This document shows positions 7,836 through 60,544 of a DNA stretch of 64,000 nucleotides, piece after piece. The DNA lies in NCBI GenBank assembly GCA_026416815.1, contig JAOAEJ010000080.1, forward strand, positions 1 to 64,000, written 5' to 3'. Within the stretch, counting starts at the first letter, position 1, and every line of letters begins with the position of its first letter. Under the pieces are notes generated by a model. That model had not been told where the DNA came from. It searched no databases and saw only the letters and a list, made by a program, of their open reading frames with translations. This stretch comes from Clostridia bacterium. GTDB lineage: Bacteria > Bacillota > Clostridia > Acetivibrionales > DSM-2933. The translations under genes were made by a program, and so were the position numbers.

Positions 7836-7874
7836 TCAACAAAATCAAAATAGGTAAATAGGTAGGTAAGGGAT

Positions 7875-8321: not shown

Positions 8322-8337
8322 GACCTGATGCAGAAGT

Positions 8338-8629: not shown

Positions 8630-8702
8630 ATACAGTAGAGGCGACATAATAACTTGACATTCAGTTATTCTCTTTTCCCTATCAATAATGTCACATTGTT
8701 TT

Positions 8703-9155
8703 TCATATTTGTATGAAATTAGGCATTTCAGGTTTTATAAGTTTTACTGGAGCATTTGTAATTTCATGCCATTGACCTTGAGCATCCAAATACTTATAGT
8801 TAGCTGTTCCAGACTTCCAATCTTCAGAAAGAACCATCCTCAATTCGGTATTCGGCTGAATAATTGGACCAACGCCACCACCAACCGGCCATTTGACTAT
8901 TGGGTATCCGGTAGCTGTAACCAAAATATGGCACACATTCGGCATTATACACATATATGTGTAGTGCCCATGGATATTTGTTGCTACATCTAATGGTGGA
9001 TTAGTTGCTTGTGTAATAAGTCCCATGCCGTCTACTTTTTCTTCAGGTGGATAGACGCTAAAGTGTATTTTGAACAAAGGTGCTCCTGGAATATCGCCGC
9101 CAATTTCATAACCAACAATAAACAACCCTGTTGCTTTTTCCAATTCAGCTTTCAT
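8703..9155 (-). CDS. Conserved hypothetical protein, possible DUF1842-type beta protein
   Basis: The ATG at 9155 is preferred because AGGAGAG lies just upstream on the minus strand, giving 150 residues; a longer frame to 9194 has no ribosome binding site. There is no signal peptide or membrane segment. The N-terminal half (GLFIVGYEIGG, then ITQATNPPLDVATNIHGHYTY) looks like an all-beta sandwich and recalls DUF1842 proteins from memory. The C-terminal half ends in KPEMPNFIQI. Function is unknown. It sits between the Rhs toxin gene and an Rhs relic, so it may be cargo of the toxin region. Confidence 0.65.
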   Translation of the reverse strand: MKAELEKATGLFIVGYEIGGDIPGAPLFKIHFSVYPPEEKVDGMGLITQATNPPLDVATNIHGHYTYMCIMPNVCHILVTATGYPIVKWPVGGGVGPIIQPNTELRMVLSEDWKSGTANYKYLDAQGQWHEITNAPVKLIKPEMPNFIQI

Positions 9156-9419
9156 ATTGAACACTCTCCTAAAAATTTTTAGATTAGTTAACACACAATG
9201 AATTACTACTACTCACCTTATGTATTTAGTTAGTATATTATGATTAAAGTTTACAAATTGTAGATTGTCGATTAAAATTGACCTTTAAACAAAAATTACT
9301 GTAAACTTACCACATGATCTTAGTGTGGAGGTTTTAGTGGGGTGAAGGACGTGCATGACTAGATACAACAGTTGCATTATATCATCCGATCAATAGCCGC
9401 AAGGAACATAAATTCATGA

Positions 9420-9659
9420 CGTAATGAGGACAAAGCTATAATATTTGATGACCCAACAGGGAATAAATTAAAGGGGCAAGTGCTTCAATATAACCCCGAC
9501 GTATATAGCCAAGCAGCAAAAAGTATGTACATCCAGAAAAGCCGGATAAAAAATAAAAACTTTGAAGTATGGTATTCTCTAAATATAGGCAAGAATGATA
9601 TAATGGGAATACAAAATTCTAAGGAAGTGTTTGCGTGGAAGAAAAGTTATTTGAATTAA
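9420..9659 (+). pseudogene. Rhs core/tip relic
   Basis: The frame after an in-frame stop at 9417-9419 reads RNEDKAIIFDDPTGNKLKG and continues VLQYNPDVYS. This closely matches the intact Rhs protein around its residues 2145-2175 (NEPIMYDDPTGHKRKG, ISYNPNEYS). Homology fades after about base 9530, and the frame runs on to a stop at 9657. No start codon or upstream repeats remain, so this is the truncated end of a second Rhs gene. The next small gene begins inside its degraded tail. Confidence 0.75.
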
Positions 9660-9907
9660 TGACTAAGATGTATTCAGATATCACAAGCAAGTTGGAAGCA
9701 ATGGACAAAAAGCTGGATAAAAAAGCGGATAAAAGTGACATTGTACATATAGAAAATAAATCGGATACTAATACCAAGGCTTTATTTGATGGATACAAAC
9801 AGTTTTATGAGAAACTTAATATCCTTGATAACAAGATTAATGAACTTTCATCAAAGGTAGAAAAGCAGGAAGTAGAAGTCAAAGTAATTAAAGGTGGGAA
9901 GTCTTAA
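9635..9907 (+). CDS. Small coiled-coil protein
   Basis: Ninety residues from a GTG start at 9635 with AAGGAAG seven bases upstream. The protein is highly charged and rich in K, E and D. Heptad-like spacing (MTKMYSDITSKLEAMDKKLDKKADK, split by eye into 3-4 steps, and again LDNKINELSSKVEKQ) predicts a long coiled coil. It has no membrane segment or signal peptide. Similar small coiled-coil proteins are common in Clostridia and their mobile elements, without assigned function. It is followed by its own terminator at 9978. Confidence 0.65.
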   Translation: MEEKLFELMTKMYSDITSKLEAMDKKLDKKADKSDIVHIENKSDTNTKALFDGYKQFYEKLNILDNKINELSSKVEKQEVEVKVIKGGKS

Positions 9908-9977
9908 CGTAATCAACATTTGACGATTTATACAACGTATTTTACTAAAAAGCAATAAGCATAACAGCAAGTCAACC

Positions 9978-9999
9978 TAGCCGGGAGCAATCCCGGCTA
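9978..9999 (+). terminator. Hairpin terminator after the coiled-coil gene
   Basis: A 9-bp perfect stem TAGCCGGGA/TCCCGGCTA with loop GCAA, followed by TAATTTTAC. Confidence 0.7.
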
Positions 10000-10030
10000 T
10001 AATTTTACTATAGGGGTGACAAAATCAAAT

Positions 10031-10063
10031 TTGCATTAGGAAGTAAGTTTACTTCCGATGCAA
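10031..10063. repeat. Imperfect inverted repeat (hairpin)
   Basis: TTGCAT (10031-10036) and GGAAGTA (10039-10045) pair with TACTTCC (10050-10056) and ATGCAA (10058-10063). It lies just downstream of the preceding terminator, in a gene-free stretch. Function unknown. Confidence 0.5.
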
Positions 10064-10080
10064 TGTAGGGGCAGAATAAT

Positions 10081-10305
10081 AGTTTGGGATTTATAAATCA
10101 AATCCTACAAGTTAAAGTACCAATATATTTTTGTGCCGGTAGATACGATTACAATACACCTTCTGAGTTGATTGAAAAATATTATCACAGTATTATAGTT
10201 CCAAAGAAAGGGTTTATATAGTTTGAAGAGTCTGCCCACTTCCCGCAATTTGAAGAAGTGAACAAATTCAATAATCTGATGGTAAAAATTAAAACGGAAA
10301 CCTAA
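10081..10305 (+). pseudogene. Relic of an alpha/beta-hydrolase C-terminus
   Basis: One frame reads VKVPIYFCAGRYDYNTP, then an in-frame TAG at 10219-10221, then FEESAHFPQFEEVNKF, ending at a TAA at 10303. This is the Asp and His end of a proline-iminopeptidase-like alpha/beta hydrolase. In intact relatives, as I recall them, the stop position is Trp (IWFE.SAHxP). The nucleophile half is absent, so this is a decayed fragment. Confidence 0.7.
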
Positions 10306-10523
10306 GAAATATTGAATTACTATTATCCACACAGGAAAACCTAATGAATGAGCAATGCAAAAAAAATATGATTATTTCCTCAATTAATATATTTAAACAC
10401 CAATACGTGTTAATTTCTAACAGAGGTAAAGCGGTGAAATACGAAGCAATTTGATGGATTTATGAGAAATCATCATAATACTATGCTTTTTTTCAAAAAA
10501 AGCCTGAATTTTTGTCATTTTTC

Positions 10524-10552
10524 TTGATTATTTAAAGTTTTTTTTGTATAAT
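10524..10552 (+). promoter_or_regulatory. Sigma-A type promoter for the carboxynorspermidine operon
   Basis: TTGATT (10524-10529), a 17-base spacer, then TATAAT (10547-10552). Transcription would start near 10559, giving a leader of about 34 bases before the ATG at 10593. Confidence 0.75.
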
Positions 10553-10592
10553 CATTTCTGATGATTTAGTAAAAGGAATTGGGGGTAGTGAT

Positions 10593-11792
10593 ATGGGAAA
10601 GGCTTTGATTATCGGCGCTGGCGGAGTTGCTAGTGTTGTTGTGCATAAATGTTGCCAGAATCCAGATGTGTTTGAAGAAATTTGTATAGCAAGTAGAACT
10701 GTTTCAAAATGTGAAGCTCTAAAAAGTAAATTGGCCGGTGGCCGCACGAAAATCCAAACTGCTCAGCTTGATGCTGATAATACCGACGAAATAATTGACC
10801 TGATAAATAGTTTTAAACCGGATATTGTTATTAACGTTGCTCTGCCTTATCAGGACTTGACAATTATGGACGCTTGTCTCGCAACGGGTGTTCATTATGT
10901 TGATACCGCTAATTATGAACCACCCGATACGCCTAAATTTGAATACAAATGGCAGTGGGCATATAGAGAAAAGTTTGAAAAAGCAGGCATAACAGCGTTG
11001 TTGGGAAGCGGATTTGACCCGGGTGTAACGGGAGTTTTCTGCGCATACGCTCAAAAGCATTATTTTGATGAGATTCATACAATTGATATAGTTGACGCTA
11101 ATGCAGGAGACCATGGATATCCTTTTGCAACAAACTTTAACCCTGAAATTAATATCCGTGAGATAACTGCCAACGGCAGATACTTCGAAAACGGTGAATG
11201 GATAGAAACAGCTCCTCTCTCTGAGAAAAGAGTATATGATCTTCCTGAGATAGGACCTAAAAACATCTATCTTTTGTACCATGAAGAATTGGAATCTTTA
11301 GCAGTTAATATAAAAGGTGTGACGAAGATAAGATTCTGGATGACTTTCTCAGATAATTATCTTAATCACTTACGTGTACTCGAAAATGTTGGTATGACTT
11401 CAATTGAGCCAATTGACTTTGAAGGACAGAAGATAATACCTTTACAGTTCTTAAAGGCTGTTCTTCCAGACCCAGCGTCTCTTGGACCAAGAACAAAAGG
11501 AAAGACCAATATCGGCTGTATCATACAGGGTGTTAAAGACGGAAAACCAAGGACCTATTATGTTTACAACGTATGCGTTCATGAAGAGTGTTACGCAGAA
11601 GTTGGTTCACAGGCAATTTCCTACACAACAGGGGTTCCTGCGATGATAGGTGCAATGATGATAATGAAGGGCATATGGAAAAAGCCTGGAGTTTACAATG
11701 TTGAAGAATTTGATCCCGATCCGTTTATGGAAGCTTTGAATAAATACGGATTACCGTGGAAAGAGGATTTTTCACCGACTCTTTTAGATTGA
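10593..11792 (+). CDS. Carboxynorspermidine/carboxyspermidine synthase (saccharopine dehydrogenase family)
   Basis: This 399-residue protein has an N-terminal Rossmann fold with GAGGVAS at residues 8-14 and the family's FDPGVTGVF segment near 150. The family condenses aspartate semialdehyde with diaminopropane or putrescine and reduces the imine with NADPH to carboxynorspermidine or carboxyspermidine. The start has a GGGGGT ribosome binding site and lies about 34 bases behind a good promoter. The next gene starts 11 bases after the stop and encodes the matching decarboxylase, which supports this role over lysine saccharopine metabolism. It gives the host an S-adenosylmethionine-independent route to norspermidine or spermidine. 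Which diamine is used cannot be read from the sequence. Confidence 0.93.
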   Translation: MGKALIIGAGGVASVVVHKCCQNPDVFEEICIASRTVSKCEALKSKLAGGRTKIQTAQLDADNTDEIIDLINSFKPDIVINVALPYQDLTIMDACLATGVHYVDTANYEPPDTPKFEYKWQWAYREKFEKAGITALLGSGFDPGVTGVFCAYAQKHYFDEIHTIDIVDANAGDHGYPFATNFNPEINIREITANGRYFENGEWIETAPLSEKRVYDLPEIGPKNIYLLYHEELESLAVNIKGVTKIRFWMTFSDNYLNHLRVLENVGMTSIEPIDFEGQKIIPLQFLKAVLPDPASLGPRTKGKTNIGCIIQGVKDGKPRTYYVYNVCVHEECYAEVGSQAISYTTGVPAMIGAMMIMKGIWKKPGVYNVEEFDPDPFMEALNKYGLPWKEDFSPTLLD

Positions 11793-21965: not shown

Positions 21966-22943
21966 ATGCTTGAAGATATAAAATCTATTCATCATGAATT
22001 GCATAACTGTATTGAGGATACACTGGCGTCACTCGCTTTGACGTTGGAACGGGAATACATACTGATGTTTGCGGAGGCGTGGAATTTTTCATATAACCCC
22101 AGAGCACGCAGAGCTTTGGGTACATTTGGCAACAGTGTGGATTATGGAGAGTATAAGGTCTTTGGGTGTATCGACAGATATCACGGTATAGGTACCGAAT
22201 GCAATTACAAAGGGGATATTAACAACCAGCTTGAGGTTATGAAAAAAGAGTTTCAACAGGGAAAGGCAGTAATTCTATGGATGGATGCGTTCTTTGTACC
22301 ATGGACTCCTGTGTTTAATAAGTATCATCGTCCCCACTATTGTATCGGTATAGGGATAGATGAGGCCGAGGGCGTAATAAAATGTGATGATCCATTCTGG
22401 AATAAGCACCAAGAGAGTATTCCGTTTAAGAGTTTTGAGGATGGAAATGGAAAATGCTTGTCTGTTAATCTCTCGGATAGGGGTGAGACGGATTTAGACT
22501 GGCATGAGGTTGTGACAATTGCTGCTCAACAGGTTCTTGGAGATGGTGAGAAGGGTAATATATTTAGTGCTATGTGCAAATTTGCAGATGATGCAGAGGA
22601 GTCGCTGGACTTGGCAGCAGAAATTAAAGGATATGAAGAAAAAATGTTCCTTGCCCCGTTATTTATGCATATGACTCAGATAGGCTCTAGCCGGGGGAAT
22701 TTCGCGAGGGTTTTAGTTTACCTTTCGGAGAAGTTTGAAGTAGAACAGCTCCTTTTACTGTCCCGGGAAATGGAGAAGGCAGGAGCAAACTGGATTGAGA
22801 TGAGGAATACACTTATGGGAGCTTACCATAAGGGCGATAGGGGTATGGTAATAAAGGTCATGGATGAGATCCGTGCAATGGCCGACCATGAAGAGAGTAT
22901 CGCTAAGCGGTTAATTGAGGTGAGTAATGAGTATAAAGAATAA
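21966..22943 (+). CDS. BtrH N-terminal-like cysteine acyltransferase/peptidase-fold protein
   Basis: 325 residues. The first 190 resemble the BtrH_N domain (butirosin acyl-ACP:aminoglycoside acyltransferase, papain-like fold). A cysteine sits early (C15 in HNCIEDTLAS), H124 is in RPHYCIGIGID, and D141/D142 are in KCDDPFW, consistent with a Cys-His-Asp triad. The remainder is helical. In butirosin the protein moves an acyl chain from an ACP to an amine; here it could transfer the ACP-bound starter or process the peptide. The stop overlaps the next gene by 17 bases, indicating translational coupling. The family call comes from memory of motifs and layout. Confidence 0.7.
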   Translation: MLEDIKSIHHELHNCIEDTLASLALTLEREYILMFAEAWNFSYNPRARRALGTFGNSVDYGEYKVFGCIDRYHGIGTECNYKGDINNQLEVMKKEFQQGKAVILWMDAFFVPWTPVFNKYHRPHYCIGIGIDEAEGVIKCDDPFWNKHQESIPFKSFEDGNGKCLSVNLSDRGETDLDWHEVVTIAAQQVLGDGEKGNIFSAMCKFADDAEESLDLAAEIKGYEEKMFLAPLFMHMTQIGSSRGNFARVLVYLSEKFEVEQLLLLSREMEKAGANWIEMRNTLMGAYHKGDRGMVIKVMDEIRAMADHEESIAKRLIEVSNEYKE

Positions 22944-48800: not shown

Positions 48801-51800
48801 ATACTTGAGCAGGTTAAAGAAGACAGCAGTAAAAACATAGATGATATGGCTCTTCTGTCAAAGGAGCAGCAAAAGCAGCTGATAGCCCGCTTCAGCAATT
48901 TTGGGGAACTGGATATAGGCAATATGCCTACTCACCAGTTATTTGAGCAGCAGGTTGAAAATAATCCAATGCACATAGCGGCGGTCTATGAGAACGAAAG
49001 CATTACATATGGCGAGCTGAATAAAAAGGCTAACCAGCTGGCCCATTTGATAAGGAAGCAGGGTATAGTAAACAACGACCCTGTGGGAATCATGGTAAAC
49101 AGAGGCATAAACACACTGATAGGAATACTCGGAATATTAAAAGCCGGGGGAACCTATGTGCCTATAGACCCAGGATACCCCGACGCAAGGGTTGGCTACA
49201 TGCTCAAGCACAGTGAAACAAAGGTACTCGTGACGGAAAGCACTTTGTTTGAAAAGGTCACCAAGCTGGCAGAAGGTGAAAACAGCTTAAATGCTCTGAT
49301 AGACCTTGCAGGAGAAACTATCATTCCGGTAAAAGGCATAAGCCGCAGCTTTAACCTAAATGATATAAGGAGCCAGGATACGTCCAACCCAGAAAATGTA
49401 AACGCTATGGACGACCTGATGTATATAATCTATACCTCAGGCTCTACAGGACTGCCTAAAGGCGTAATGGTAACCCATTCAAATGCAGTTAACTATACAA
49501 AATGGAGCATAAGTGATTCCAGGCTTTGCAATAACGACAGGATGATGCTGGTTACATCCATAAGCTTTGATATATCGGTATTTGAGATATTTGGAGCACT
49601 TTTAAGCGGTGCCACCCTGTATATAGTATCAGCAGACAGGCTTAAGGACTCACAGCTTTTGGAGGAGTATATCAAGGACAACTCAATAACCATATGGCAC
49701 TCGGTACCTACATTGATGTCTCAAATGCTTTTAACGTTAGAAAGTGGAAATCTTCCATCAGTAAGAAGAATTATGATTGGGGGAGAGGCATGGAGTATAG
49801 AGCTTGCAAAAGGAATAAGGGAGAACTTCCCCAAAGCTGAAATCGTCAACATGTACGGCCCTACCGAAGCAACCATTTGGGTAAGCAGCTATGTGATAGG
49901 TGATGAGTTGGATACGATTACCTCAATACCTATAGGGAAACCAATAGCAAACAACAGCATTATCATCCTTGATTCCGACAGGAAGCTGTGCAGTATAGGA
50001 ATACCCGGAGATATCTATGTTAGCGGTTCAAACATCACAAAGGGCTACTACAAGGACGAGGCAAAGACGAAAGAGGTATTCATAAAGGATGAGACAACAG
50101 GTGAAATAATTTATAAGACGGGAGATACCGGAAGATATCTGTCCAATGGGAATGTAGAATTCCTCGGCAGAAAAGACGGAATGGTAAAGGTAAGGGGCTA
50201 CAGGATAGAAGTAGGGGAAATAGAAAACATAATGCTCACCAGCGAAAGAATCAGTCAGGCTGCGGTAATAGCAATGAAAGATGGTGATACAAGCAAGCTT
50301 GTGTGCTTCTATGTATCAGACGATGAGATAGCTGCAGCAGAATTGAGGGGTCATTTAAAGTCAAGGCTTCCCGACTATATGATTCCTTCCCAGTTTGTCA
50401 GAGTTGAAAAAATGCCGCTAACTCCAAACGGCAAAATAGATAGGAAGGCTCTTCCTGCACTGTGCAAAAATATAAGCGTAGAGGTAGAATATGAAAGTGC
50501 TTCTACCCCTATAGAAGAAAAATTAACTGCTATATGGCAGGAAATGCTGGATATCAAAAACATAGGAGTAAACCACAACTTCTTTGATATTGGGGGCAAT
50601 TCCTTCCTGATAATAAAAATGGTTGTGGAAATGCAAAAAAGAGGGCTGGAAGTAAAGGCCTCGGATATGTATCTCTATAAGACCATAAGAGAACTGGCAG
50701 CATATATCGAAAGTAAGGGTACCAAGGTTGAAGGCAGTAAACCCCAAAGTGCAAAGGCTGAAAGCATTAAAAAGGCTGAGAGTATAGCTGTAACGCCTGT
50801 GAGTGCCGCTACCTCTGTTGCAAAGGATATAAGCTCTGCAAACGCGCTGCATGAGTACTTGAAGGGTATGAGCATTACATGCGGTCACCCGGTAATTTTC
50901 TCTGCAAGCAGATGGGTTGTATTAAACAGATGGCTGATTAAGAGTGAGCCCTTCAAAGCCTATGACCTCGACAGTGTAATGCCTTACTTTGATACCGGTG
51001 CGAGGGTACTAAGCGAAAATGAATGCTTCTCCCTTTCAAAAGAAGAGGCTGAAAACAACTGGAGATACTATATTTCAAACTTCAAGGAGAGGTTTAACCA
51101 GTCGTGTACCGTAGAAAAGGCCTTCACAAGAGGGGAAGACAGGTATATATACTGCCTGAGCGATGTGTACTGTACAAAAGCCCAGGACGTGCTTATAAAT
51201 ATAAATACCTTCATGCCTGTGCCTATGAGGGTGTGGATAAACGGACAGCTTGTGTTTAAGGGCAGCAGCAAATACTTCTGTTCCTTTGACCACTTTATCA
51301 TATTCAGGCTTAATGAGGGCTACAACACCATACTCATAGAAAGAATGATGACCTCCGAGACTACCGCTCAGACGGAATTCATAATAATATTGAGGCCATG
51401 TGAACATCTGCTGGACGAGGGTATGGCATATACCTTCTTTGACAGAAGCTTTCTTGATAGTATTGAGAATTCATACAGCATTATCCCGGATACGGCATTC
51501 TTCCAACAGGAAGAAGAAATGGGGGTGGTAGTTTTACCTCAATGCTTCAGAAGCGGCGAAGAAGAATCCATAAAAGTAAGTATATCCGATTCAAGCGGCA
51601 GGCTACTCGATACAACAAATACCACCACAGCAAAAAGGTTTGTACTAAATGTGGATACGGGTATAAACGGAGTGGTGAGAGTTGAAGCAGAAAGCATGGT
51701 AAACCCTGCAAAACGCTCCCAGGCATATGTATTCAAAGGAGATTTCATAACTGTAAGGGACAGAATGATTAAACAAGCGCTGCAAAGGCAGGACTGCACC

Positions 51801-53516
51801 AGTGAAATCATAACTTCCTTAATGAGGCTGTCGGAGATTCCCGATGTGGGAACAGGGCTGATAAAGGGAACTCCGGAGATTATGAACCAGTACCTTTACG
51901 ATAAAGTGTTTGATAAATACTTGAAGTTTGAAAACTATTTGAGTTCTCCTGACACCGGGGAAAAGAAAACCCTGTTTGATGTGTATACAGGTAGTGCAGC
52001 TGTATTTAAAAACAGTGAGATAGATGAAGCCTTTACACCATACAGCGTATACCTGCCCGAGGGCTACACTCCTGAAAATAGATATCCTCTGCTGGTATTC
52101 TTCAATAACGGAGCAGGACTGCCCGATACCATGAACTATGTAAAAAAGGGAAGGTTTAGCGAAGCAATCATTGTAAACCTGGTGGGCAGGCCAAACAGCA
52201 GCGATTTTATTGATGAAATAAATACCACCAATATAATAAGGGATACGCTAGAGAAGCTAAGTGTAGACAGGGACAGAATCTATATAATGGGCTACTGTGC
52301 CGGGGGTATAAAATGCTTTACAACTGCACTAAGGCAGCCGGGATTGGCAGCAGCTATGGTAAATGTGGTAGGTGCTCCCGAGTTTGACATAAACAGCCCT
52401 GAGCTGGAATACTTAAAGAATATTGAGTCCACAACAGTCTACAACCTGTGCAGTATAGACGATTGGTTCTATCCGGGACAGATGGCCTTAAGCACAGTGA
52501 AGGAACTGAAGAAGCTTAAAAACTATGCCTACTGCGATTTTAGCCACAATGAGTTTAATGACATACATAACTCAAGGGTGCTGCTAAAGACGCTGACAGA
52601 GGAGAAGAGAGAAAAATACCCTAAAAAGCTGTATTTTACAGTCTATGAGCCTGCTTATAACAGGTCATACTGGCTGACAGTGGAGAGGACAGAGGAGTTA
52701 AAACAGAAGGCAGTGATTGAAGCTGAAATAATAGCTTCAAATCATATAAGTATTAACTCAAAGAATGTAAAATCCTTTAGCGTCCTTGTTGACACTGAAG
52801 CAATGGATCTTGATGAGGACATTGAGATATGCGTAAATGGCTTAAGCAGGAAGATAGCACTGCACAGCTACTCAAAGGTATGGGTAACAATAGAGGAAAG
52901 CAGCTTGGATGTAAGTACAGCAGCTATGTCACAAGACAATTTCCACACTGAATATGATTATATTGGCTTTGATGAAAAACTGCTGGGAATCAAGCAATTG
53001 TACCTGAAGAAGTGTGTTATAGTTAAACCCGATAATTATAAAGCTGCAAGTGAATCTATTGCTAACGAGATTGTCTATAGACTGTGCAATCCTCTAAAAG
53101 CCAGTGCTAGGGCATATAAATATGCAGAGGTGTTTGAGGGTGAAACAAACTCTGCAAAGCTTGCACAAAGCAACTTCGTGTATTTGATTGATGTTAGGGA
53201 TATAAGCAGTATTCAGGAAGAAGTAATGGCCTTAGCAGGAATTACAGCAAAGGTTGGCGGGTTAGAATATACTAATATAGAGTTTATGGGTGAATATTTT
53301 GCCTTGATAAAACGCCCAAATCCTTTTAGTGGGGAAAAGTTTGCACTGTTTGTTGTCTACAATAGTAACGCAGTACAGCATGAACTGTTGAACCTTCTGA
53401 ACTCCTTTGACACAAATCCTTTATTCTACAGTGAGGCTGTAGTGTTCAATGAGGGAAGCTATCGCTGCTTTAGAGAGCAAGATAATCGGGGAGCAGATTT
53501 GGTGAGGAATCCATAA
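42879..53516 (+). CDS. Hybrid PKS-NRPS: KS-DH-KR-ACP-C-A-T with fused ~900-residue Cys-hydrolase region
   Basis: 3545 residues. The N-terminal helical docking segment (LEKDAAKAMLKKIQEF) is followed by a KS (C210, H340, H380). The DH has HLISGHSVIP at 696-705 and D863, with Ser at the position usually Gln/His. The KR is at about 1185-1400, and the ACP has S1513. There is no AT. The C domain has HHIITDGW near 1703. The A pocket D-I-F-H-M-G-M-I-W gives no safe prediction, perhaps a small residue. The carrier has S2575. From about 2605 the protein leaves NRPS architecture: a jelly-roll-like region (MRVWINGQLVF), then an alpha/beta hydrolase at about 3030-3240 with GYCAGG (C3140) where GxSxG is expected, D3194/D3195 and H3223, then about 300 residues beginning TVYEPAYNRSYWLTV. 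This is the likely terminal and release module. Confidence 0.94.
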   Translation: MELIKNYIYSQVASKQLEKDAAKAMLKKIQEFSEQQNKKADDIAVIGLACRFPGAQNAEEYWNVLKDGINCISTFPENRRKDTDKLLPENLDTSGDVYSRGGYLDEVDKFDAGFFRISPKEAELMDPTQRLFLETAWEAIEDAGLGGRRIYGTKTGVYVGKDTTNGVGYTTLIDEDDPLKQTGATTSILASRLSYILDLKGPGIVLDTACSSSLAAMHMAVNAMKNGEIDIAVVGGVSVSLLPVRGGMVDSPDEMIRAFDKDANGTVWGEGAGAVILKPLKKALRDRDNVYAVIKGSALNNDGSSNGITAPSAEAQAEVIQQAWKSAGVEPKTISYIEAHGTGTKLGDPIEIKGITMAFKRFTAEKQFCAIGSVKTNIGHLVGAAGISSFIKAVLSLKNKKIPATLNVKEPNPLINFVDSPVYLNNSLSEWKTEGFPRRCGVSSFGFSGTNCHVILEEAPEASKAPAGELNRHVFTLSAKTEESIHGLIKKYIEFLDRNQSNDIGNICYTRNAGRNHYSYRLAVTAASTDELKRKIKKAYEAGLGKNGLELDGIYFGKHNIVLNKEQKAAGELSEEEKIALSSRVNEAITQHIESGKEFGDLIENVCKLYVEGADIEWSRIYKEGLYSTLNLPAYQFDRKRYWAELQKPQASNKVSNASDEEPCSSLIDKCLVSTMGECIFTTEFSVDKHWILNEHLISGHSVIPGTTYIEMVMQAGKEYFKSSFLGLRNIQFYTPLVFNRADVKTVHTILREQDGKVLFTVASCADGNNSIGQTQWTLHATGELVKDEFGTPERYDIKALKEQLGESKEINLIEGGVMSFGPRWKCARNVRVGQNEALAYLELLPELAEDVKEYTLHPAILDIATSIGYSQVADKGLYLPFSYGEINVYRPIPAKCYSRISPMLELGKEYEIIKYNVEILDENGEIAVDIKDFSLKRAGDIHNRIRTLSQKESSFYNTVWKTEELTLSNTLPEGILIFKDGKQIGETIAQKLQNSGKKVIAVELGKEFKRLDENKYAIGGTQADYDRLLEQINDTNISLIIHMQSITGETVIDTVEQLERQHQTSVSSLFYLAKAVLKSKFKNGIDIVLAAENANEVTARESTINPHGAALFGLGKVIGQEYPDIKVRCIDIDENTSSESIMDELKAENSRYVNAYREGKRYAEVLQKVELVNEETKEPEIKDSGVYIITGGTGGIGIEICSFLASKNKVNLALINRSKLPERSEWAAIVEKNEDKKLASKLSKIKQIEDTGSKVDLYSADVSNYSEMSNLVSQLRQKYGKINGIIHGAGVAGDGFIVRKDEEVFNKVLAPKIYGTWILNDVTKGDNLDFFVMFSSLASLMGGNGQGDYTAANAFMDAFAAYRSKSGKRTVTINWPAWKETGMAYDYGVNHDTIFKALGTQEAVYGFDKALNSSYNGIIIGELNYSNKILAGDQSIIYLSDEIKAAVQGWKRKSAAKASGEAHKKGYSVEISGRENGEYTEAEKQVAQIWAEAFGLQAINIYDDFYQLGGDSILAIKISNSITQRMNTKVDIVELLEHSSVSDLASYLGEQKGEEKAQGAKTEVDELLEDKSYELSSAQKRMWFLQKYDPSITAYNLQGTLFVDLELNIEKFNSALSTVLERHSALRTVITENAGDPKQVILNKLDLKVEFQDISSEKDREIVLKNLLHEENKYVFDLSKPLIRVSVYKLEAKRYCIHVNMHHIITDGWSSKIFFDELSKVYFAYSQGKEHGLEPLKLRYADLVERQISWLKSEEAQRAEEYWLKELDKPLPVLNLPLDFNRPQMQTYNGSFIKFSIPAENARRLKEVSRQLNSTPYMLFLSAYFLLLKKVTLDNDIIVGFPIAGRDSRELENVIGMFMNTACIRVNFDGINEFKQLVTYVKEKCLTAYKNGKYPFDLLVTKVNPERDLSRSPIFSTMFQFFEAIPQENEGVSQYELSVLCREAGDEIEVRLEYNSDLFKRETAELFARYFLNILEQVKEDSSKNIDDMALLSKEQQKQLIARFSNFGELDIGNMPTHQLFEQQVENNPMHIAAVYENESITYGELNKKANQLAHLIRKQGIVNNDPVGIMVNRGINTLIGILGILKAGGTYVPIDPGYPDARVGYMLKHSETKVLVTESTLFEKVTKLAEGENSLNALIDLAGETIIPVKGISRSFNLNDIRSQDTSNPENVNAMDDLMYIIYTSGSTGLPKGVMVTHSNAVNYTKWSISDSRLCNNDRMMLVTSISFDISVFEIFGALLSGATLYIVSADRLKDSQLLEEYIKDNSITIWHSVPTLMSQMLLTLESGNLPSVRRIMIGGEAWSIELAKGIRENFPKAEIVNMYGPTEATIWVSSYVIGDELDTITSIPIGKPIANNSIIILDSDRKLCSIGIPGDIYVSGSNITKGYYKDEAKTKEVFIKDETTGEIIYKTGDTGRYLSNGNVEFLGRKDGMVKVRGYRIEVGEIENIMLTSERISQAAVIAMKDGDTSKLVCFYVSDDEIAAAELRGHLKSRLPDYMIPSQFVRVEKMPLTPNGKIDRKALPALCKNISVEVEYESASTPIEEKLTAIWQEMLDIKNIGVNHNFFDIGGNSFLIIKMVVEMQKRGLEVKASDMYLYKTIRELAAYIESKGTKVEGSKPQSAKAESIKKAESIAVTPVSAATSVAKDISSANALHEYLKGMSITCGHPVIFSASRWVVLNRWLIKSEPFKAYDLDSVMPYFDTGARVLSENECFSLSKEEAENNWRYYISNFKERFNQSCTVEKAFTRGEDRYIYCLSDVYCTKAQDVLININTFMPVPMRVWINGQLVFKGSSKYFCSFDHFIIFRLNEGYNTILIERMMTSETTAQTEFIIILRPCEHLLDEGMAYTFFDRSFLDSIENSYSIIPDTAFFQQEEEMGVVVLPQCFRSGEEESIKVSISDSSGRLLDTTNTTTAKRFVLNVDTGINGVVRVEAESMVNPAKRSQAYVFKGDFITVRDRMIKQALQRQDCTSEIITSLMRLSEIPDVGTGLIKGTPEIMNQYLYDKVFDKYLKFENYLSSPDTGEKKTLFDVYTGSAAVFKNSEIDEAFTPYSVYLPEGYTPENRYPLLVFFNNGAGLPDTMNYVKKGRFSEAIIVNLVGRPNSSDFIDEINTTNIIRDTLEKLSVDRDRIYIMGYCAGGIKCFTTALRQPGLAAAMVNVVGAPEFDINSPELEYLKNIESTTVYNLCSIDDWFYPGQMALSTVKELKKLKNYAYCDFSHNEFNDIHNSRVLLKTLTEEKREKYPKKLYFTVYEPAYNRSYWLTVERTEELKQKAVIEAEIIASNHISINSKNVKSFSVLVDTEAMDLDEDIEICVNGLSRKIALHSYSKVWVTIEESSLDVSTAAMSQDNFHTEYDYIGFDEKLLGIKQLYLKKCVIVKPDNYKAASESIANEIVYRLCNPLKASARAYKYAEVFEGETNSAKLAQSNFVYLIDVRDISSIQEEVMALAGITAKVGGLEYTNIEFMGEYFALIKRPNPFSGEKFALFVVYNSNAVQHELLNLLNSFDTNPLFYSEAVVFNEGSYRCFREQDNRGADLVRNP

Positions 53517-54691: not shown

Positions 54692-55984
54692 CTATCTTAT
54701 TTCAAAAATTACCGGTCTCGTTCCCAATTTGAGATTGCCATCAGCTACAACAATATCCTCACCGGTAATGAGGTTTTTGTAAATACCATCGTTACAATCT
54801 ACTTTAAGTACTCCTTCTTTTCTTTCAACGTTAAACACTCCAAAGACCTTTTTAACACCGTCTTCATAAGACGCTAGAATGACACCTTGCTTATCAGTTT
54901 TATGCAGAATATATTTACCCTTTGCAAAAATAGGGTCTTTTTTAAGCTGCCCAAGTACTTTCATGTACGAATCAAATCGGTGCTCCATACCGCTCCAGTT
55001 AACTATGTCCTTATCAAACAAACTTGGGGTTTTGTCATCCATAGCCTCCTGCCCTGCATATAGTAAGACAGCTCCTTTTTGGAAGTATAAGAATGCAGTC
55101 CACATAGCCAGATCTTCTTTTACAGGGAATAGTACTCTAGCCCTTTCGGTGTCATGGTTTTCTATAAAGCGTAACTTCACATAGTTGGCAGGGTAAACAA
55201 ACTCATGTGTACGCAGTCTTTCTATATATGTTTCAAGGCTAGCATCGCCCTTCAGGTAGGGGCGGAAGGCAAAATCATATTCATAATCATAGGTCATATC
55301 AAAGGCCTGATACATCTCGCAATCGGAAGTTGCATTAAACTCTTTTTCACGCAAGTAAGCTATAAACTCCGGGCTGATACTGTCTGCAAGCCAGATAATG
55401 TCATCCTTGACCTTTGATACCTCCTCTCTTGCTTTCAACCAGAACTCAAGGGGAACAAGCTGTGACAAGTCACATCTGAAGCCGTCCACACCAAGGTTTG
55501 CCCAATACTTTAGTGACTCTATCTGATACTCCCAAAGGTCCATATTTGAATAATCCAAGTCAATTACGTCATCACAATGTTCAATTTTGCTTCCTATGCA
55601 ACCGTCAGCTTTACGGTAAAACCAATCGGGATGGTTTTTATGCAATTCTGACTCATAAGAAGTAAAGTTATAAACTACGTCTATCATGATCTTTAAGTCT
55701 TTACTATGTATACTATCAATAAGGTGCTTGAATTCTTCAAGAGTGCCATACTCTGGATTGACTTCGCGGTAGTTCTGTACCGAGTAAATGCAGCCAAGTG
55801 TTCCTTTTTTATTTGTTTGGCCTACTGGATGAATAGGCAAAAACCATAGGATATCCACTCCAAGGTCTTTGATTCTGTCGAGATCCTTTTCTATACCTTT
55901 AAATGTAGCATTTTCACTATAGTTTCGCAGATATACTGAATATATAATCTTATTTCTAAGGTCTGTAGTTGTGTATTTAGCCAT
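54692..55984 (-). CDS. GH13-family protein with substituted catalytic residues
   Basis: 430 residues covering an alpha-amylase barrel and a short C-terminal beta domain, without signal peptide. Region II is intact (GFRCDL, nucleophile D172) and so is region IV (FIENHD, H277, D278). In region I the His of DxxxNH is Phe (DVVYNF, F107). The acid/base Glu expected in the WLAES-type segment is Asp (WLADS, D201). Family knowledge says these two residues bind substrate at -1 and protonate the leaving group, so ordinary hydrolysis is probably weak or lost. Intact length and good codon structure argue against simple decay. It lies between a zinc alcohol dehydrogenase and an AraC regulator. The GGAG site supports the ATG. 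Confidence 0.88.
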   Translation of the reverse strand: MAKYTTTDLRNKIIYSVYLRNYSENATFKGIEKDLDRIKDLGVDILWFLPIHPVGQTNKKGTLGCIYSVQNYREVNPEYGTLEEFKHLIDSIHSKDLKIMIDVVYNFTSYESELHKNHPDWFYRKADGCIGSKIEHCDDVIDLDYSNMDLWEYQIESLKYWANLGVDGFRCDLSQLVPLEFWLKAREEVSKVKDDIIWLADSISPEFIAYLREKEFNATSDCEMYQAFDMTYDYEYDFAFRPYLKGDASLETYIERLRTHEFVYPANYVKLRFIENHDTERARVLFPVKEDLAMWTAFLYFQKGAVLLYAGQEAMDDKTPSLFDKDIVNWSGMEHRFDSYMKVLGQLKKDPIFAKGKYILHKTDKQGVILASYEDGVKKVFGVFNVERKEGVLKVDCNDGIYKNLITGEDIVVADGNLKLGTRPVIFEIR

Positions 55985-56040: not shown

Positions 56041-57108
56041 TTAGTCAAAGCAAATTTGAGTCTTAATAGATTTAAAGGCATCTTTCTCAAAAACGTCAAC
56101 AGACTCCATTTCCGAGACATTTACCTTCTTTGTTATCATCCAGGAAACAAGGTCTTGGTGATCGTTGAGGAATGATATAACTTCTTCAAAGGAGCCTGTT
56201 CCTCCAATGCTTCCTCTAACTGATAATGCTTTCAGTACAATCTTATTTGCCTCAATTTCTCCATTAGGGTACATTCCGAGGAGTACAACCGTACCACCAG
56301 CTTGAACCAGACTAAGAGAAGTATTTAGAGCTTTAGGACTCCCACTTACTTCAAAAATTATATCGTAAATTGAAGTGCTCAATAAACCTGCATAATTACT
56401 GCTGTCTCCTGCAGCCTCAAGCTCAGCAAATTCAAGTTCGGGATAAACGGATTTTATAAAATCAATGCGTTCTTTTGCAAGCTCATAGACTTTAACATTT
56501 TGTTTCTTAAACATATGCTTCAATAATATATACACAGCGATACCCAATGGACCGGCACCAATTATAAGGATGCTGTCATCCGAAGATTTATGCAGGCATT
56601 TGCTTGTATTGTCAAAGGCAGCCAATGACTTTTTAATACCATTTAAGGCAACAGAAAACAACTCGGCCAATGCAAGGATATCAAGGGACATATTAGCTGG
56701 AGCTGCGTATAAATGCTTTACAGGTACTTTGACATACTCCTGGGCAAACCCGTCAATAGTTATACCGAATTTTTCAATTCTTGTACAAATGTTCTTATCC
56801 CTTTGACAGTCAAGGCAGAATGAGCAGTCAGTACCCCACTTTGAGCAATCCCCGGTTACAATATCCCCAACTTTAAGCTTGGAGTCGGGGGAGTTTATTT
56901 CTACGATTGTCCCAGACCATTCGTGACCAAAGACCAGGGGATAATTGGAAGGTCCCGAATAGTTACCGTTATATAACTTATAATCGGAGCCGCAGAGACT
57001 TACGTGGCTTATCTTTACAATAGCTTCTTCGGGCTCTACTTGTAGGTGTTCGTGAGGGGAATTTATCACTTCCAAATTATTTTTGCCGACAATTGTTAAT
57101 ATCTTCAT
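56041..57108 (-). CDS. Zinc-dependent alcohol dehydrogenase (MDR), possibly cyclitol-specific
   Basis: 355 residues from the ATG at 57108, preferred over an earlier ATG because AGGAGA lies six bases before it. Catalytic zinc residues are C39 (CGSD) and H62-E63 (GHEWSG). Structural-zinc cysteines are C95, C98, C101 and C108. NAD(P) is bound by GAGPLG. The GHEWSG block and layout recall sorbitol/threonine dehydrogenases and the zinc type 2-deoxy-scyllo-inosamine dehydrogenases of aminoglycoside pathways. A cyclitol substrate is suggested by the TIM-barrel isomerase upstream and the inosose-synthase-like gene at 59402, but this is inference. It belongs to the minus-strand unit 58063-53641. Confidence 0.9.
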   Translation of the reverse strand: MKILTIVGKNNLEVINSPHEHLQVEPEEAIVKISHVSLCGSDYKLYNGNYSGPSNYPLVFGHEWSGTIVEINSPDSKLKVGDIVTGDCSKWGTDCSFCLDCQRDKNICTRIEKFGITIDGFAQEYVKVPVKHLYAAPANMSLDILALAELFSVALNGIKKSLAAFDNTSKCLHKSSDDSILIIGAGPLGIAVYILLKHMFKKQNVKVYELAKERIDFIKSVYPELEFAELEAAGDSSNYAGLLSTSIYDIIFEVSGSPKALNTSLSLVQAGGTVVLLGMYPNGEIEANKIVLKALSVRGSIGGTGSFEEVISFLNDHQDLVSWMITKKVNVSEMESVDVFEKDAFKSIKTQICFD

Positions 57109-57232
57109 ATGTATTCTCCTGTTCATAAAAGCTGATTATAATAGATTGTTTACTGCAAAGCTTTAATTAGGCGTGCAGGGGAGGGGGTGGCAAAAAAATC
57201 CAACTGCCATTACATCTGTATATTATCAAAAT

Positions 57233-58063
57233 TTAGTAAATTTCCTTATCTATAGCTTTAAGGTATTTTATACTCTCGCTCAATGCCTGCTGCCAGACAT
57301 CTGCATGGTGGAAAAGCTCTACAGAAACAAAATTATTATAGCCTTTAGCTTTAAGTATTTTAAATACCGAAGAGAAGTCAATATCAGCAGTTCCCGGTAT
57401 CTGGTGGTGGTGTATGCGGTTCTTTATATCTTCAATGTGGCAGTGAACCGTATAGTCTAGAGCTTTTTCTATTTTGTTGAGGTACTCATCCTCAGAGCAA
57501 TATACATGACCAATATCAAGATTGAGCTTAAAATATGGGGAATTGACTTCCTCTATAGCCGATATGGCAGCTTCGGTTGTACCAATGAACATATCCGGTT
57601 CTGGTTCTACTGCCAGGATTAATTCTTTGCAATCGTCAAGAAGGATTTGAACGCCTTCAATAAAATACTTTCTAGCGTCATCAGCAGCCATTTCCTTATT
57701 CTTAAATCCGCTTGCAAAGTTCATCACCGGGCTGCCTAGATATTTGGCTATCTCAATACTTCTTTTCAAGAGTTCAATCCTTTTTTTTCTTCCTTCTTTG
57801 TCTGGAGTAATCAAAGATGGTTCATAGGGAATATCACTTAATAAATCAGATCCACCGGTAGCTAGACATGCAATTTTTATACCACTATCGGCAGCAACAT
57901 TTTTTATGCTGTTCAATTGCTTGTCATTCACAGTAAACGGAAACAATTGATTTTTAAGAAGTGAAAGCTCAATACCGTCATATCCGTTAAGTGCAACATT
58001 TCTTATGGCATCTTCAATACTTATATTACGTAACCCATTGCCGTTGTAAGAAAACTTAATCAT
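57233..58063 (-). CDS. Sugar phosphate isomerase/epimerase-like TIM barrel
   Basis: 276 residues from the ATG at 58063, which has GAGGTGG at good distance. It is an AP-endonuclease-2/xylose-isomerase-like barrel. Metal-binding candidates are the Glu in AVEPEPD, the Asp and His in NLDIGHVYC, the His pair in HCHIEDI, and the Glu in VSVELFHH. Relatives act on sugar phosphates or inososes, such as IolE and IolI. It leads the minus-strand unit followed by the zinc dehydrogenase, 124 bases away. The divergent unit carries the O-methyltransferase and inosose-synthase-like genes, so an inosose or related ring ketone is a reasonable substrate guess. Confidence 0.88.
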   Translation of the reverse strand: MIKFSYNGNGLRNISIEDAIRNVALNGYDGIELSLLKNQLFPFTVNDKQLNSIKNVAADSGIKIACLATGGSDLLSDIPYEPSLITPDKEGRKKRIELLKRSIEIAKYLGSPVMNFASGFKNKEMAADDARKYFIEGVQILLDDCKELILAVEPEPDMFIGTTEAAISAIEEVNSPYFKLNLDIGHVYCSEDEYLNKIEKALDYTVHCHIEDIKNRIHHHQIPGTADIDFSSVFKILKAKGYNNFVSVELFHHADVWQQALSESIKYLKAIDKEIY

Positions 58064-58370
58064 TTTATCCACCTCGATAACTGTTATTTATTTTAAAGTA
58101 TACATTACATTGAGAAATAGATAGTTTACCATAGCCTATCCATCCACCTCATTTGCCTGGACTGGAGGAGCTTTATGAAATTAGTACATATAAAAACTTA
58201 TAGGTACTGATTAAAAAGTTTTTAGAAATACCAGCCTGCATAAAAGTCGATAAACACAAACAAATGGTATTTATATCTAATACAAGTTTAGCTTTTAATG
58301 ATAGCTATTTCAAGTCCATGACAAAATTTTACTTAGATTTATTTAATCTGATATATAATGGAGAATGCTG
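58064..58370. other. Divergent intergenic region
   Basis: AT-rich spacer between the minus-strand isomerase unit and the plus-strand methyltransferase. No gene or strong inverted repeat is seen. Confidence 0.4.
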
Positions 58371-58399
58371 TTCAAAAGTAGGATAAACTGTGATATAAT
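58371..58399 (+). promoter_or_regulatory. Probable promoter of the O-methyltransferase gene
   Basis: TTCAAA (58371-58376), 17 bases, TATAAT (58394-58399) with TGA directly before it (extended -10). The ATG lies 73 bases downstream behind GGAGGA. Confidence 0.55.
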
Positions 58400-58472
58400 A
58401 ATTTATCTCACCAAAAATTTACAAATATTTATATAGAGAAGATATTTGAAATAACATTTACAGGAGGATATT

Positions 58473-59099
58473 ATGAACAAAGTGGCTGAATATATAAACA
58501 GTTTTATGACATTTGACAATCCCCAGTTACCCGAAATTTTAAAGCAGGAGCAAACAATAAAGGATATTCATATTGAGCCAAGCGTAGGACTGGAGGTTGG
58601 AAAATTTCTAAGCCTGTTAGTGCGGATGACTAACGCCCAAAGAGTACTGGAGCTGGGTACATGCCTGGGGTACTCAACCATATGGATTGCTGAAGCACTG
58701 CGTCAGACTGGCGGAAAGTTAATATCGGTTGAACATAATGTAAATCTTTATAAGGTAACAAGCCAGAATATCAACGAGGCAGGATTATCGGATGTGGTGG
58801 AGGTCATTTGGGGCGATGCGAGTAAAGTAATAGATCAAGTAGAGGGGCCATTTGATATAATTCTACAGGATTCAGGCAAACACTTGTACCCTGTAATGCT
58901 TGAGAAATGCATAAATTTGGTACGTAAAAATGGAATTATAATTGCAGATGATGCCCTTTTCAAACCCATGGGTTTTCCAGAAGAATACAGTGAACCGGTA
59001 CATGACTATAATAAAAGGGTATTCGAGGACAACCGCCTTTACAGTACACTGCTCCCAATCGGACATGGAATTGTTGTGAGTACAAAACTATGTGATTAA
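58473..59099 (+). CDS. Class I SAM-dependent O-methyltransferase (caffeoyl-CoA OMT family)
   Basis: 208 residues. Motif I is VLELGTCLGYSTIW, the SAM-ribose acidic residue is in ISVEHN, then FDIILQDSGKHLYP and the metal-site Asp pair in IIIADDALF. Such metal-dependent enzymes methylate vicinal hydroxyls of small molecules, usually catechols. It is followed by the inosose-synthase-like gene, which has its own promoter, and lies opposite the isomerase/dehydrogenase unit. A hydroxylated ring, either a cyclitol or an aromatic, is therefore a likely substrate. It could equally tailor the NRPS/PKS product. Confidence 0.9.
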   Translation: MNKVAEYINSFMTFDNPQLPEILKQEQTIKDIHIEPSVGLEVGKFLSLLVRMTNAQRVLELGTCLGYSTIWIAEALRQTGGKLISVEHNVNLYKVTSQNINEAGLSDVVEVIWGDASKVIDQVEGPFDIILQDSGKHLYPVMLEKCINLVRKNGIIIADDALFKPMGFPEEYSEPVHDYNKRVFEDNRLYSTLLPIGHGIVVSTKLCD

Positions 59100-59143
59100 G
59101 ATACATAAATAAATTGTATTTAATAAGAGAGAGCAGTATATTA

Positions 59144-59173
59144 TTGACATAATTAACCACGGACTGATATAAT
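59144..59173 (+). promoter_or_regulatory. Strong promoter upstream of the inosose-synthase-like gene
   Basis: TTGACA (59144-59149), 18 bases, TATAAT (59168-59173) with TGA before it. It would give a leader of about 220 bases to the ATG at 59402, spanning the inverted repeat at 59323-59376. Confidence 0.7.
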
Positions 59174-59322
59174 TTACTGTGGAATTTGCCAAAATAAGTA
59201 GTTATATGTATTGAAATTTAACAATCTTGTTGTAAATTAAGACATAGATAAGAATTATTTTACTCAATAATGTTAACTATTTAACAAAGCGATTACGACA
59301 TTAAAAATTCAGACTGAACTAA

Positions 59323-59376
59323 TACTACTTTGTTATTTTGGAATTTGCTATTATTATGGTAAATAACAAAGTAGTA
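59323..59376. promoter_or_regulatory. Large inverted repeat flanking a second possible promoter
   Basis: TACTACTTTGTTATTT (59323-59338) is repeated inverted and perfect at 59361-59376, and CTAATAC flanks both sides. Between and across the arms, TTGTTA (59330) and TATTAT (59352) are 16 bases apart, so a repressor on the arms would cover -35 and +1. Alternatively, as RNA, a 16-bp stem would end nine bases before the AAAGGAGGG ribosome binding site. Confidence 0.65.
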
Positions 59377-59401
59377 CTAATACGTGAAAGGAGGGAAGTC
59401 T

Positions 59402-60544
59402 ATGCATGTGACAGAAAAACTTCCTGATGGTGTGAAATGCCTGCCTTTAAATCTTGCTCATAAAGTCGACCTCCTTTATGGGATAGACATAGTCGATAAA
59501 TTTACATACTTCTTAAATATGCTTTCGTTTGATAAAGTGTTTTTTATATCTGAGGAGACTATTTATAATTTACATGGGCGACGTTTATTTGAATTGTTGA
59601 GAGAAGACGACATAAACTGTGAGGTTATTTTAATTCCCGGAAAAGAGAAAAACAAATCCTTTGAAAATTTAGAGTTCTTATGTAACTTGCTTGTTGAAAA
59701 AAACATCTCAAAAGATAGTATAATAATAGCATTTGGCGGAGGGCTCATCGGTAATATTGTAGGAATGGCTGCTGCGTTGATTTACAGGGGTATAAGATTT
59801 ATTGAGGTGTCAACAACTCTGATGGGCCAAAGTGATAGCACCCTCAGCAATAAGCAGGCTATAAACGGAAGAACCGGGAAAAACCAGTTTGGTACATATT
59901 ATTCGCCAGAATTCGTATGGGCAGATATTAAATATCTTGAATCGGAAAGCCCAAGACATATAAAAGCCGCTCTTGTAGAAGGAATAAAAAATGCTTTTAT
60001 TTCAAATGCAGATTTGCTTATAGAGTTTGAAAGGCTGCTTTCCAAGAAACTGATTACACAAGATGAATTATTGGAGATATATGAAATAATTATAAAATCA
60101 AAAAATGCTATACTTGAAAAAGATCCTTCAGAACGGTATTATGCAATTATCCTTGAATATGGTCATACTTTCGGACATGCCATAGAATTTTTAACAGATG
60201 GAAGAATAATTCACGGTGAAGCTGTTGCCATAGGAATGTGCATAGCTGCTGAGTTAGGCTGCTTATTGGGCACAACCAGCTGTCAAGTTCTAGAAACCCA
60301 TTATCGCTTCTTCAAAGATATAATGGAAATTGATATGAAATTGCCGCAGGAACTAAGTGCACAGAAAATATTTGAGGCAATCCAAAAAGATAATAAACGC
60401 GTTTATTCGGGAATTAAGTATATACTTCTGGATGGTATAGGCAAATGTATGAACCCAGATGGTGATTATCAGGTATATGTACAACCTGAAATGGTTCTTG
60501 AAGCTGTTAACCGTTTTATAAAAAGGACTGTTTGTGAAATATAG
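59402..60544 (+). CDS. 2-deoxy-scyllo-inosose synthase-like sugar phosphate cyclase
   Basis: 380 residues from the ATG five bases after AAAGGAGGG; an upstream GTG overlaps that site. It is dehydroquinate-synthase fold, with NAD-binding GGGLIGN at about 112-118 and zinc ligands E193, H255 and H271. Two features fit the butirosin BtrC type rather than dehydroquinate synthase: SDSxLSxKQAxN at about 144-155 where DHQS has DSSVGGKT, and EYGHT (E252) where DHQS has a neutral residue. DOI synthase converts glucose 6-phosphate to the cyclitol ketone. No aminotransferase of the BtrS type is in the window, so the ketone may meet another fate via the dehydrogenase, isomerase and methyltransferase nearby. 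Other cyclases of the family remain possible. Confidence 0.85.
   Translation: MHVTEKLPDGVKCLPLNLAHKVDLLYGIDIVDKFTYFLNMLSFDKVFFISEETIYNLHGRRLFELLREDDINCEVILIPGKEKNKSFENLEFLCNLLVEKNISKDSIIIAFGGGLIGNIVGMAAALIYRGIRFIEVSTTLMGQSDSTLSNKQAINGRTGKNQFGTYYSPEFVWADIKYLESESPRHIKAALVEGIKNAFISNADLLIEFERLLSKKLITQDELLEIYEIIIKSKNAILEKDPSERYYAIILEYGHTFGHAIEFLTDGRIIHGEAVAIGMCIAAELGCLLGTTSCQVLETHYRFFKDIMEIDMKLPQELSAQKIFEAIQKDNKRVYSGIKYILLDGIGKCMNPDGDYQVYVQPEMVLEAVNRFIKRTVCEI

Follow-up and report, generated by a model that had tools for sequence, protein, structure and literature searches.

In the core of mycosporine and gadusol biosynthesis, the sedoheptulose-7-phosphate cyclase DDGS is accompanied by an O-methyltransferase, and in the inositol catabolism of Thermotoga, a pathway without a cyclase, IolM acts on inosose and IolO on a later intermediate. 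Also known already are the sugar phosphate cyclase (SPC) superfamily as such, 2-deoxy-scyllo-inosose (DOI) synthase, of which BtrC is a solved representative, and the EboD/EboE pair of the ebo operon, in which an SPC is joined by a xylose-isomerase-like triosephosphate isomerase (TIM) barrel and EboD is reported to lie near the sedoheptulose-7-phosphate cyclases (PMC5133447). Here we analyse a stretch of 64,000 nucleotides (the window) from a Clostridia bacterium of the Acetivibrionales (GenBank assembly GCA_026416815.1, contig JAOAEJ010000080.1, positions 1 to 64,000), whose genome of 4.78 Mb is divided into 102 contigs; the window sits on the 135-kb contig that we call C49. Between positions 56,041 and 60,544 it encodes an SPC resembling DOI synthase, a TIM barrel, a zinc-dependent dehydrogenase (ADH) and an O-methyltransferase (OMT).

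This locus resembles each of the described systems in part. Its cyclase shares with BtrC (PDB 2d2x/2gru) the fold (Z 43.5), the glutamate of the EYGHT motif, the GGGxxGN and SxKQ motifs and the loss of the carboxylate-binding arginine, but it falls in a sister clade with Asn156, Glu188 and a TIM-barrel partner, and it is accompanied by neither an aminotransferase nor glycosyltransferases. The pairing of an SPC with a TIM barrel recalls EboD and EboE; membership of the ebo operon was considered on that account and rejected, the eboB, eboC (UbiA) and eboF families being absent from the eight proteins encoded between 53.6 and 63.3 kb. The dehydrogenase and the barrel belong to the same families as IolM and IolO, but they score well under the respective cut-offs (109 against 450 bits for the scyllo-inosose 3-dehydrogenase IolM and 85.5 against 300 bits for the NCBIfam model of the 5-keto-L-gluconate epimerase IolO). 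As in the mycosporine and gadusol core, an O-methyltransferase gene adjoins the cyclase gene; however, DDGS (PDB 5tpr) is 18% identical to the window cyclase in the fold alignment, and the window OMT is of the small catechol type.

Results

The original prediction, made from the sequence of the window, had described a cyclitol pathway with a DOI-synthase-like cyclase, a zinc dehydrogenase, an inosose-isomerase-like barrel and an O-methyltransferase. A carbocycle-forming pathway around such a cyclase is supported, and all four genes are full-length open frames in the open reading frame listing of the window, with the Pfam families that had been named. The cyclase (59384..60544, plus strand, listed as 386 aa; DHQ_synthase/DHQS_C, 1e-29) likely starts at the ATG at 59402 behind GGAGGG, giving 380 aa. 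The TIM barrel (57233..58072, minus strand, listed with a GTG start) belongs to PF01261 (AP_endonuc_2, 6e-44), the ADH (56041..57126, minus strand) to ADH_N/ADH_zinc_N, and the OMT (58473..59099, plus strand) to PF01596 (Methyltransf_3, 1e-32), the metal-dependent catechol/caffeoyl-CoA type. The reading of the ADH as an inosamine dehydrogenase, as distinct from its family, is one option among others, since the protein scores best to threonine 3-dehydrogenase, with IolM third and all scores far under the cut-offs. The view that this is no aminoglycoside locus was borne out: no BtrS-type or other aminotransferase and no glycosyltransferase, the families that would mark a 2-deoxystreptamine cluster, was found among the same eight proteins or among 13 proteins scanned leftward.

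To place the cyclase, GTDB contigs were scanned with an alignment (A1); 169 stretches were confirmed and the best 80 of them kept, giving 79 loci, and two trees were computed, one of 108 rows, leaving out duplicates, four truncated genes (L081, L083, L084 and L101) and L020, and one of 49 rows by a careful method. Both trees show the same two groups, and in the 49-row tree each forms one side of a branch (supports 100/98 and 95/88). Group A unites BtrC with Photorhabdus, Pseudomonas, actinomycete and several clostridial sequences; group B unites the window cyclase with sequences from Cyanobacteria, Planctomycetota, Actinomycetota, Fibrobacterota, Desulfosporosinus, Desulfobulbaceae and Holophagaceae, its sister being that of a Lachnospiraceae metagenome-assembled genome (MAG), L045 (99/98). 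Because BtrC entered the tree as a fragment (residues 64-344) on a long branch, its position within group A is uncertain; it lies on the other side of the branch from the window cyclase, which thus belongs to a sister clade and not to that of the DOI synthases. Of the 398 genomes sampled from the phylum, that of the window is the single one with a group-B cyclase, a count that speaks against a widespread primary metabolic role, as the original prediction had expected.

By sequence, the closest solved relative of the cyclase is BtrC (2d2x, 2.8e-47). The BtrC-type signatures ascribed to it, SDSxLSxKQAxN and EYGHT, read SDSTLSNKQAIN and EYGHT in the protein, which also contains GGGxxGN and SDSxLSxKQ. 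If, as we assume, the roles and numbering of the catalytic residues of dehydroquinate synthase (DHQS) can be carried over, Glu258 replaces the Asn of the DHQS motif NxGHT and Ala254 the Arg that binds the carboxylate of 3-deoxy-D-arabino-heptulosonate 7-phosphate, a combination (EYGHT glutamate present, Arg/Asn pair lost) that is the residue pattern of DOI synthases. In the alignment the glutamate occurs in 51/51 group-B and 32/32 BtrC-side rows, and the arginine position holds Ala, Gly, Cys or Ser in all of them, while both Asn and Arg are kept in the 23 of 23 DHQS rows that have letters there. The metal and base residues common to SPC families are kept and the catalytic positions are complete; Asn156 (50/51 rows) and Glu188 (49/51) are typical of group B. 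An AlphaFold2 model built from ten group-B sequences (mean pLDDT, the predicted local distance difference test, 89) matches DHQS 1nvd (Z 45.7) as well as BtrC 2gru over about 355 residues. The score to the AroB model TIGR01357 is 243.1 bits against a cut-off of 305, and that to TIGR04425, an AroB-related putative phospholyase, 196.7 bits against a curated cut-off of 400. The host has just three SPC genes, on C49 (the window), C26 (38% identity) and C71 (27%), the last of which carries the DHQS signature NFGHT and is the host's own true DHQS. Residues, tree and this separate gene exclude a DHQS identity for the window cyclase, in agreement with the original prediction.

The most consistent partner of the group-B cyclases is a TIM barrel, detected by hidden Markov models (HMMs) within 5 kb of the cyclase at 39 of 52 group-B loci against none of 36 BtrC-side loci. 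The 36 include three repeats (L109, L119 and L121 of L038, L037 and L040) and the truncated gene L101 (a 44% relative without a position in the tree); without these four, 32 remain. Among the 13 group-B loci that gave no match, several lie at contig ends. Since the HMMs were built from group-B barrels and recognize one another's families unevenly (F2 members escape the F11 model and F11 members the F2 model), a divergent barrel near group-A genes could have been missed. At L045, L047, L070 and L061 both a barrel (44-50% identical to that of the window) and a zinc dehydrogenase (29-38%) lie a few kilobases from the cyclase, and loci of Lachnospiraceae, Desulfosporosinus, Bacillota and Desulfobulbaceae have the ADH as a partner; in Propionibacterium it lies about 3 kb from the cyclase, and at L087 the barrel adjoins the cyclase with the ADH about 3 kb further. 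The order of the window trio differs, the TIM and ADH genes lying on the minus strand and separated by a divergent intergenic region of 400 bp (58073..58472) from the OMT and cyclase genes. Cyclase and barrel, often with the ADH, evidently form a conserved module independent of any non-ribosomal peptide synthetase (NRPS), and by these counts the module is rare and widely scattered; within 120 genomes near Desulfosporosinus, no further cassette was found beyond its own. In the 59 other genomes of a 60-genome set, a single homologue of the window barrel was found (E<=1e-20), adjoining a different cyclase type, and the TIM partner is common to different types of cyclase.

Several other loci extend this picture. 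At L183 a DFGHT-type cyclase (7851-8984) adjoins a barrel (9077-10819) 42-50% identical to that of the window, in two pieces split by an insertion. Cyanobacterial group-B cyclases (L050, L063, L066, L046 and L048) pair with either of two other TIM-barrel families, one of which is often accompanied by a short-chain dehydrogenase/reductase and a gene like those of the major facilitator superfamily. Two group-B cyclases are about 640 aa long (L061:1876-3795 and L053:4197-6119); the former carries an added regulator domain of the IclR type, which scores to PcaR/PcaU/PobR as well, an odd combination of enzyme and regulator; the latter agrees with it in length (640 aa), and perhaps the fusion is shared by two phyla. 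In Actinomycetota, L087:940-16473 combines a group-B cyclase and barrel with BtrH-type, TatD-like, pyridoxal-phosphate-enzyme, radical SAM and AMP-binding genes, of which several also occur in Streptomyces and Kitasatospora loci; clusters of this type are an apparent, uncharacterised natural-product family.

The partner enzymes appear intact. The metal-ligand positions of the barrel, which we take to correspond to those of ketose 3-epimerases, are E156, D186, H212 and E252, the Glu-Asp-His-Glu set of the PF01261 superfamily; across 19 rows, position 212 is His in 12 and Gln in 7, and position 252 Glu in 11 and Asp in 8. Its model (pLDDT 96) finds its top fold match in TM0416/IolO (Z 32.0, root-mean-square deviation 1.9, 254 aligned residues, 26% identity), an enzyme of the Thermotoga inositol pathway (PMC12632266). 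In the ADH the zinc ligands are kept, and Cys45, His68, Glu69 and the cysteines at 101, 104, 107 and 114 are invariant in 5/5 aligned cassette copies. The OMT reaches 113.3 bits against a PF01596 gathering score of 22; the known substrates of catechol-type OMTs are nearly all phenols, and the enzyme would fit a phenolic product.

Two sister cassettes adjoin genes for pyrogallol hydroxytransferase (PDB 4v4c). In Desulfosporosinus fructosivorans (L047) a gene divergent from the cyclase and 346 bp off matches the large subunit at 1297 bits over nearly its full length, followed by the small subunit, recognized by position and by 44-55% identity to small-subunit genes adjoining other large subunits; UbiX- and UbiD-family decarboxylase genes also adjoin this cassette. 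In L070, a Bacillota MAG, a small-subunit gene (420 bits) lies 1.7 kb past the ADH and adjoins a large subunit (66%). Large-subunit homologues occur in all four genomes of the subclade (best identities 100%, the query itself, 66, 79 and 51%), against a base rate of 5/398 genomes in the Bacillota sample. According to PMC13039779, pyrogallol hydroxytransferase requires 1,2,3,5-tetrahydroxybenzene.

Discussion

We tentatively favour an aromatising pathway that would form a polyhydroxybenzene, O-methylated in the window's organism, over one leading to a cyclitol. From the identity of the genes, their conserved catalytic residues, the clade, the conservation of partners and the association of sister cassettes with pyrogallol hydroxytransferase, we infer its substrates, step order, isomer and aromatic product. 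The NAD- and zinc-dependent cyclase would probably take a hexose 6-phosphate, with glucose 6-phosphate the likeliest, to a DOI-type keto-cyclitol (C6H10O5). In what we regard as close to an even call, the ADH would then oxidize a ring hydroxyl to give a diketone (C6H8O5), much as IolM oxidizes scyllo-inosose. Somewhat more tentatively, the metal-dependent barrel may enolise the ketone and remove water, or isomerise it with water then leaving spontaneously, to give a tetrahydroxybenzene (C6H6O4); these two steps may be swapped. In the window's organism alone, the catechol-type OMT would cap the product as a methoxylated polyphenol. The arithmetic assigns one enzyme to each step (loss of 2H from DOI, then of H2O) and arrives at the formula of the pyrogallol hydroxytransferase cosubstrate, which, together with the association of the sister cassettes, is why aromatisation is favoured. 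As chemical precedent, PMC11467972 describes the elimination of a protected inosose to 1,2,3,5-tetrahydroxybenzene and the acid dehydration of myo-inosose to 1,2,3,4-tetrahydroxybenzene.

A good deal weighs against this proposal. By our own reasoning, elimination from an oxidised DOI would in its simplest forms yield 1,2,4,5- or 1,2,3,4-tetrahydroxybenzene, and for the 1,2,3,5 isomer C4 or C6 would have to be oxidised. The nearest sequence and fold relatives of the barrel are epimerases and not dehydratases; the aromatising dehydratase AsbF is a weak sequence match (3.7e-4), and neither it nor myo-inosose dehydratase is among the 50 fold matches listed, which excludes nothing. No pyrogallol hydroxytransferase was found in the window's own genome, so that the product must serve another purpose here, and no large-subunit homologue in any of six further group-B genomes, which include the Lachnospiraceae MAG. 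The Desulfobulbaceae member has just the 51% homologue, in a lineage where the enzyme is common (21/144 relatives, itself included). All five of the other Bacillota with the enzyme are without a group-B cyclase; the cassette is therefore not required for it, and the idea of a fixed companion was rejected. The OMT has no counterpart in the other cassettes examined, and the gap of 302 bp between it and the cyclase (counted from 59402) contains a sigma-70-like promoter site (59144..59173, plus strand; TTGACA-N18-TATAAT with an extended -10, matching 12/12 consensus positions and identified by that match alone) and an inverted repeat, for which reasons its tie to the cassette is positional only.

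The repeat itself (59320..59379, plus strand; 19-nt arms 95% complementary, 22-nt loop, fold z -2.1) lies just 5' of the cyclase ribosome-binding site and is a candidate operator or leader hairpin. Its 15-nt arm sequence occurs exactly in the window in the two arms alone, and a leader RNA family was sought for it with no Rfam match at E<=1. No similar repeat was found before the cyclase genes of L047 and C26; at L070 the repeats are AT-rich, and the one at L045, a perfect hairpin, resembles an upstream terminator.

Of the competing explanations, a non-aromatic cyclitol is a serious one, if on balance rather doubtful: the barrel would epimerise a DOI-type ketone, the ADH reduce it and the OMT methylate a ring hydroxyl to give a free methylated deoxy-inositol, in line with the methylated polyol of the original prediction. 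The keto-sugar epimerases that are the barrel's nearest relatives in sequence and fold, the cyclitol dehydrogenases within the ADH family, and the BtrH-type and AMP-binding genes of the actinomycete group-B cluster, typical of natural products, all fit such a product, but the catechol-type OMT, with its phenolic family substrates, and the link of the sister cassettes to polyphenol metabolism do not, and on their account we favour a phenol over a polyol. It is improbable that the cyclase uses another substrate, such as the sedoheptulose 7-phosphate proposed for EboD, with the barrel acting on a C7 cyclitol; the SPC and TIM pairing in the ebo operon (PMC5133447) and the barrel 42% identical to the window's beside the DFGHT-type cyclase of L183 would suit this, but the glutamate of DOI synthases is kept in all 51 group-B rows. 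A broken or relic aminocyclitol pathway from DOI to 2-deoxy-scyllo-inosamine, its aminotransferase lost, would account for the hallmarks of the cyclase and for an ADH readable as an inosamine dehydrogenase, but we consider it very improbable: the cyclase stands outside the BtrC clade, and the aminotransferase-free trio is no product of decay, because it is complete in its catalytic residues and recurs in several phyla.

The remaining proposal, that the neighbouring NRPS and polyketide synthase (PKS) genes incorporate a cyclitol or phenol into their product as a building block or a cap, as the original prediction had suggested of a cyclitol attached to the peptide, we also think improbable. Proximity speaks for it, as do the paralogue on C26, which follows 60 bp behind an NRPS gene in which a condensation (C) domain is the last one detected, and the DOI-synthase-like genes that precede NRPS genes in Acetivibrio. 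However, an AraC-type and a GH13 gene separate the cassette from the cluster, the closest relatives of the cassette are without NRPS genes, as is the module in other phyla, and the expected co-occurrence of cassette and NRPS/PKS cluster in relatives was not seen. Moreover, the C-terminal end of the last NRPS/PKS protein (about 840 residues) has homologues (36-38%) on C57 and C81, contigs without a cyclase, as well as in 3/59 other genomes of a 60-genome set. The BtrH-like protein noted in the NRPS cluster is present (21966-22943), although its 27.5 bits are under the Pfam gathering score of 29.7. It is better placed with the NRPS/PKS machinery than with the cyclitol genes, because on C57 another BtrH-like gene (33% identical) stands near the C-terminal homologue, in another PKS region, with no cyclase on C57 or C81. 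The cassette is thus apparently a small stand-alone pathway, separate from the NRPS cluster.

Other features of these regions deserve mention. The GH13 gene, encoding an alpha-amylase-family enzyme (54692..55984, minus strand), lies 56 bp past the ADH stop and is possibly co-transcribed with it; its membership is doubtful, since cassettes elsewhere do not share it. The C-terminal region of roughly 840 residues (50979-53513 in the window) stands alone at L184:7054-9735, L185:7265-9919 and G029:C21:65665-75542 (four neighbouring matches). On C26 (L034), in the same genome as the window, a group-B-like cyclase (1899-3038, 38%) lies beside an NRPS gene (3099-8261), and this locus is a better candidate than the window for a cyclitol-released peptide. 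Group-A genes lie directly upstream of NRPS genes, without a TIM barrel, at L036, L040/L121 (Acetivibrio mesophilus) and L038/L109 (A. straminisolvens), and these relatives may possibly make cyclitol peptides.

Conclusions

This analysis sets apart a DOI-synthase-like clade, scored as AroB-like by general models, and gives it a frequent partner enzyme. Searches of the open-access literature yielded no account of the group-B clade, none of the trio and no biological source of 1,2,3,5-tetrahydroxybenzene, and our results suggest a possible origin for the tetrahydroxybenzene that primes anaerobic pyrogallol degradation. In its full form, which we hold to be rather unlikely, the proposal would make the group-B cyclase, barrel and ADH a route from hexose 6-phosphate to polyhydroxybenzenes independent of both shikimate and polyketides, its product in Desulfosporosinus being the 1,2,3,5-tetrahydroxybenzene cosubstrate and that in the window's organism a new methoxyphenol, perhaps serving as a redox carrier. 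If true, this would be a way to aromatic compounds that bypasses the shikimate pathway.

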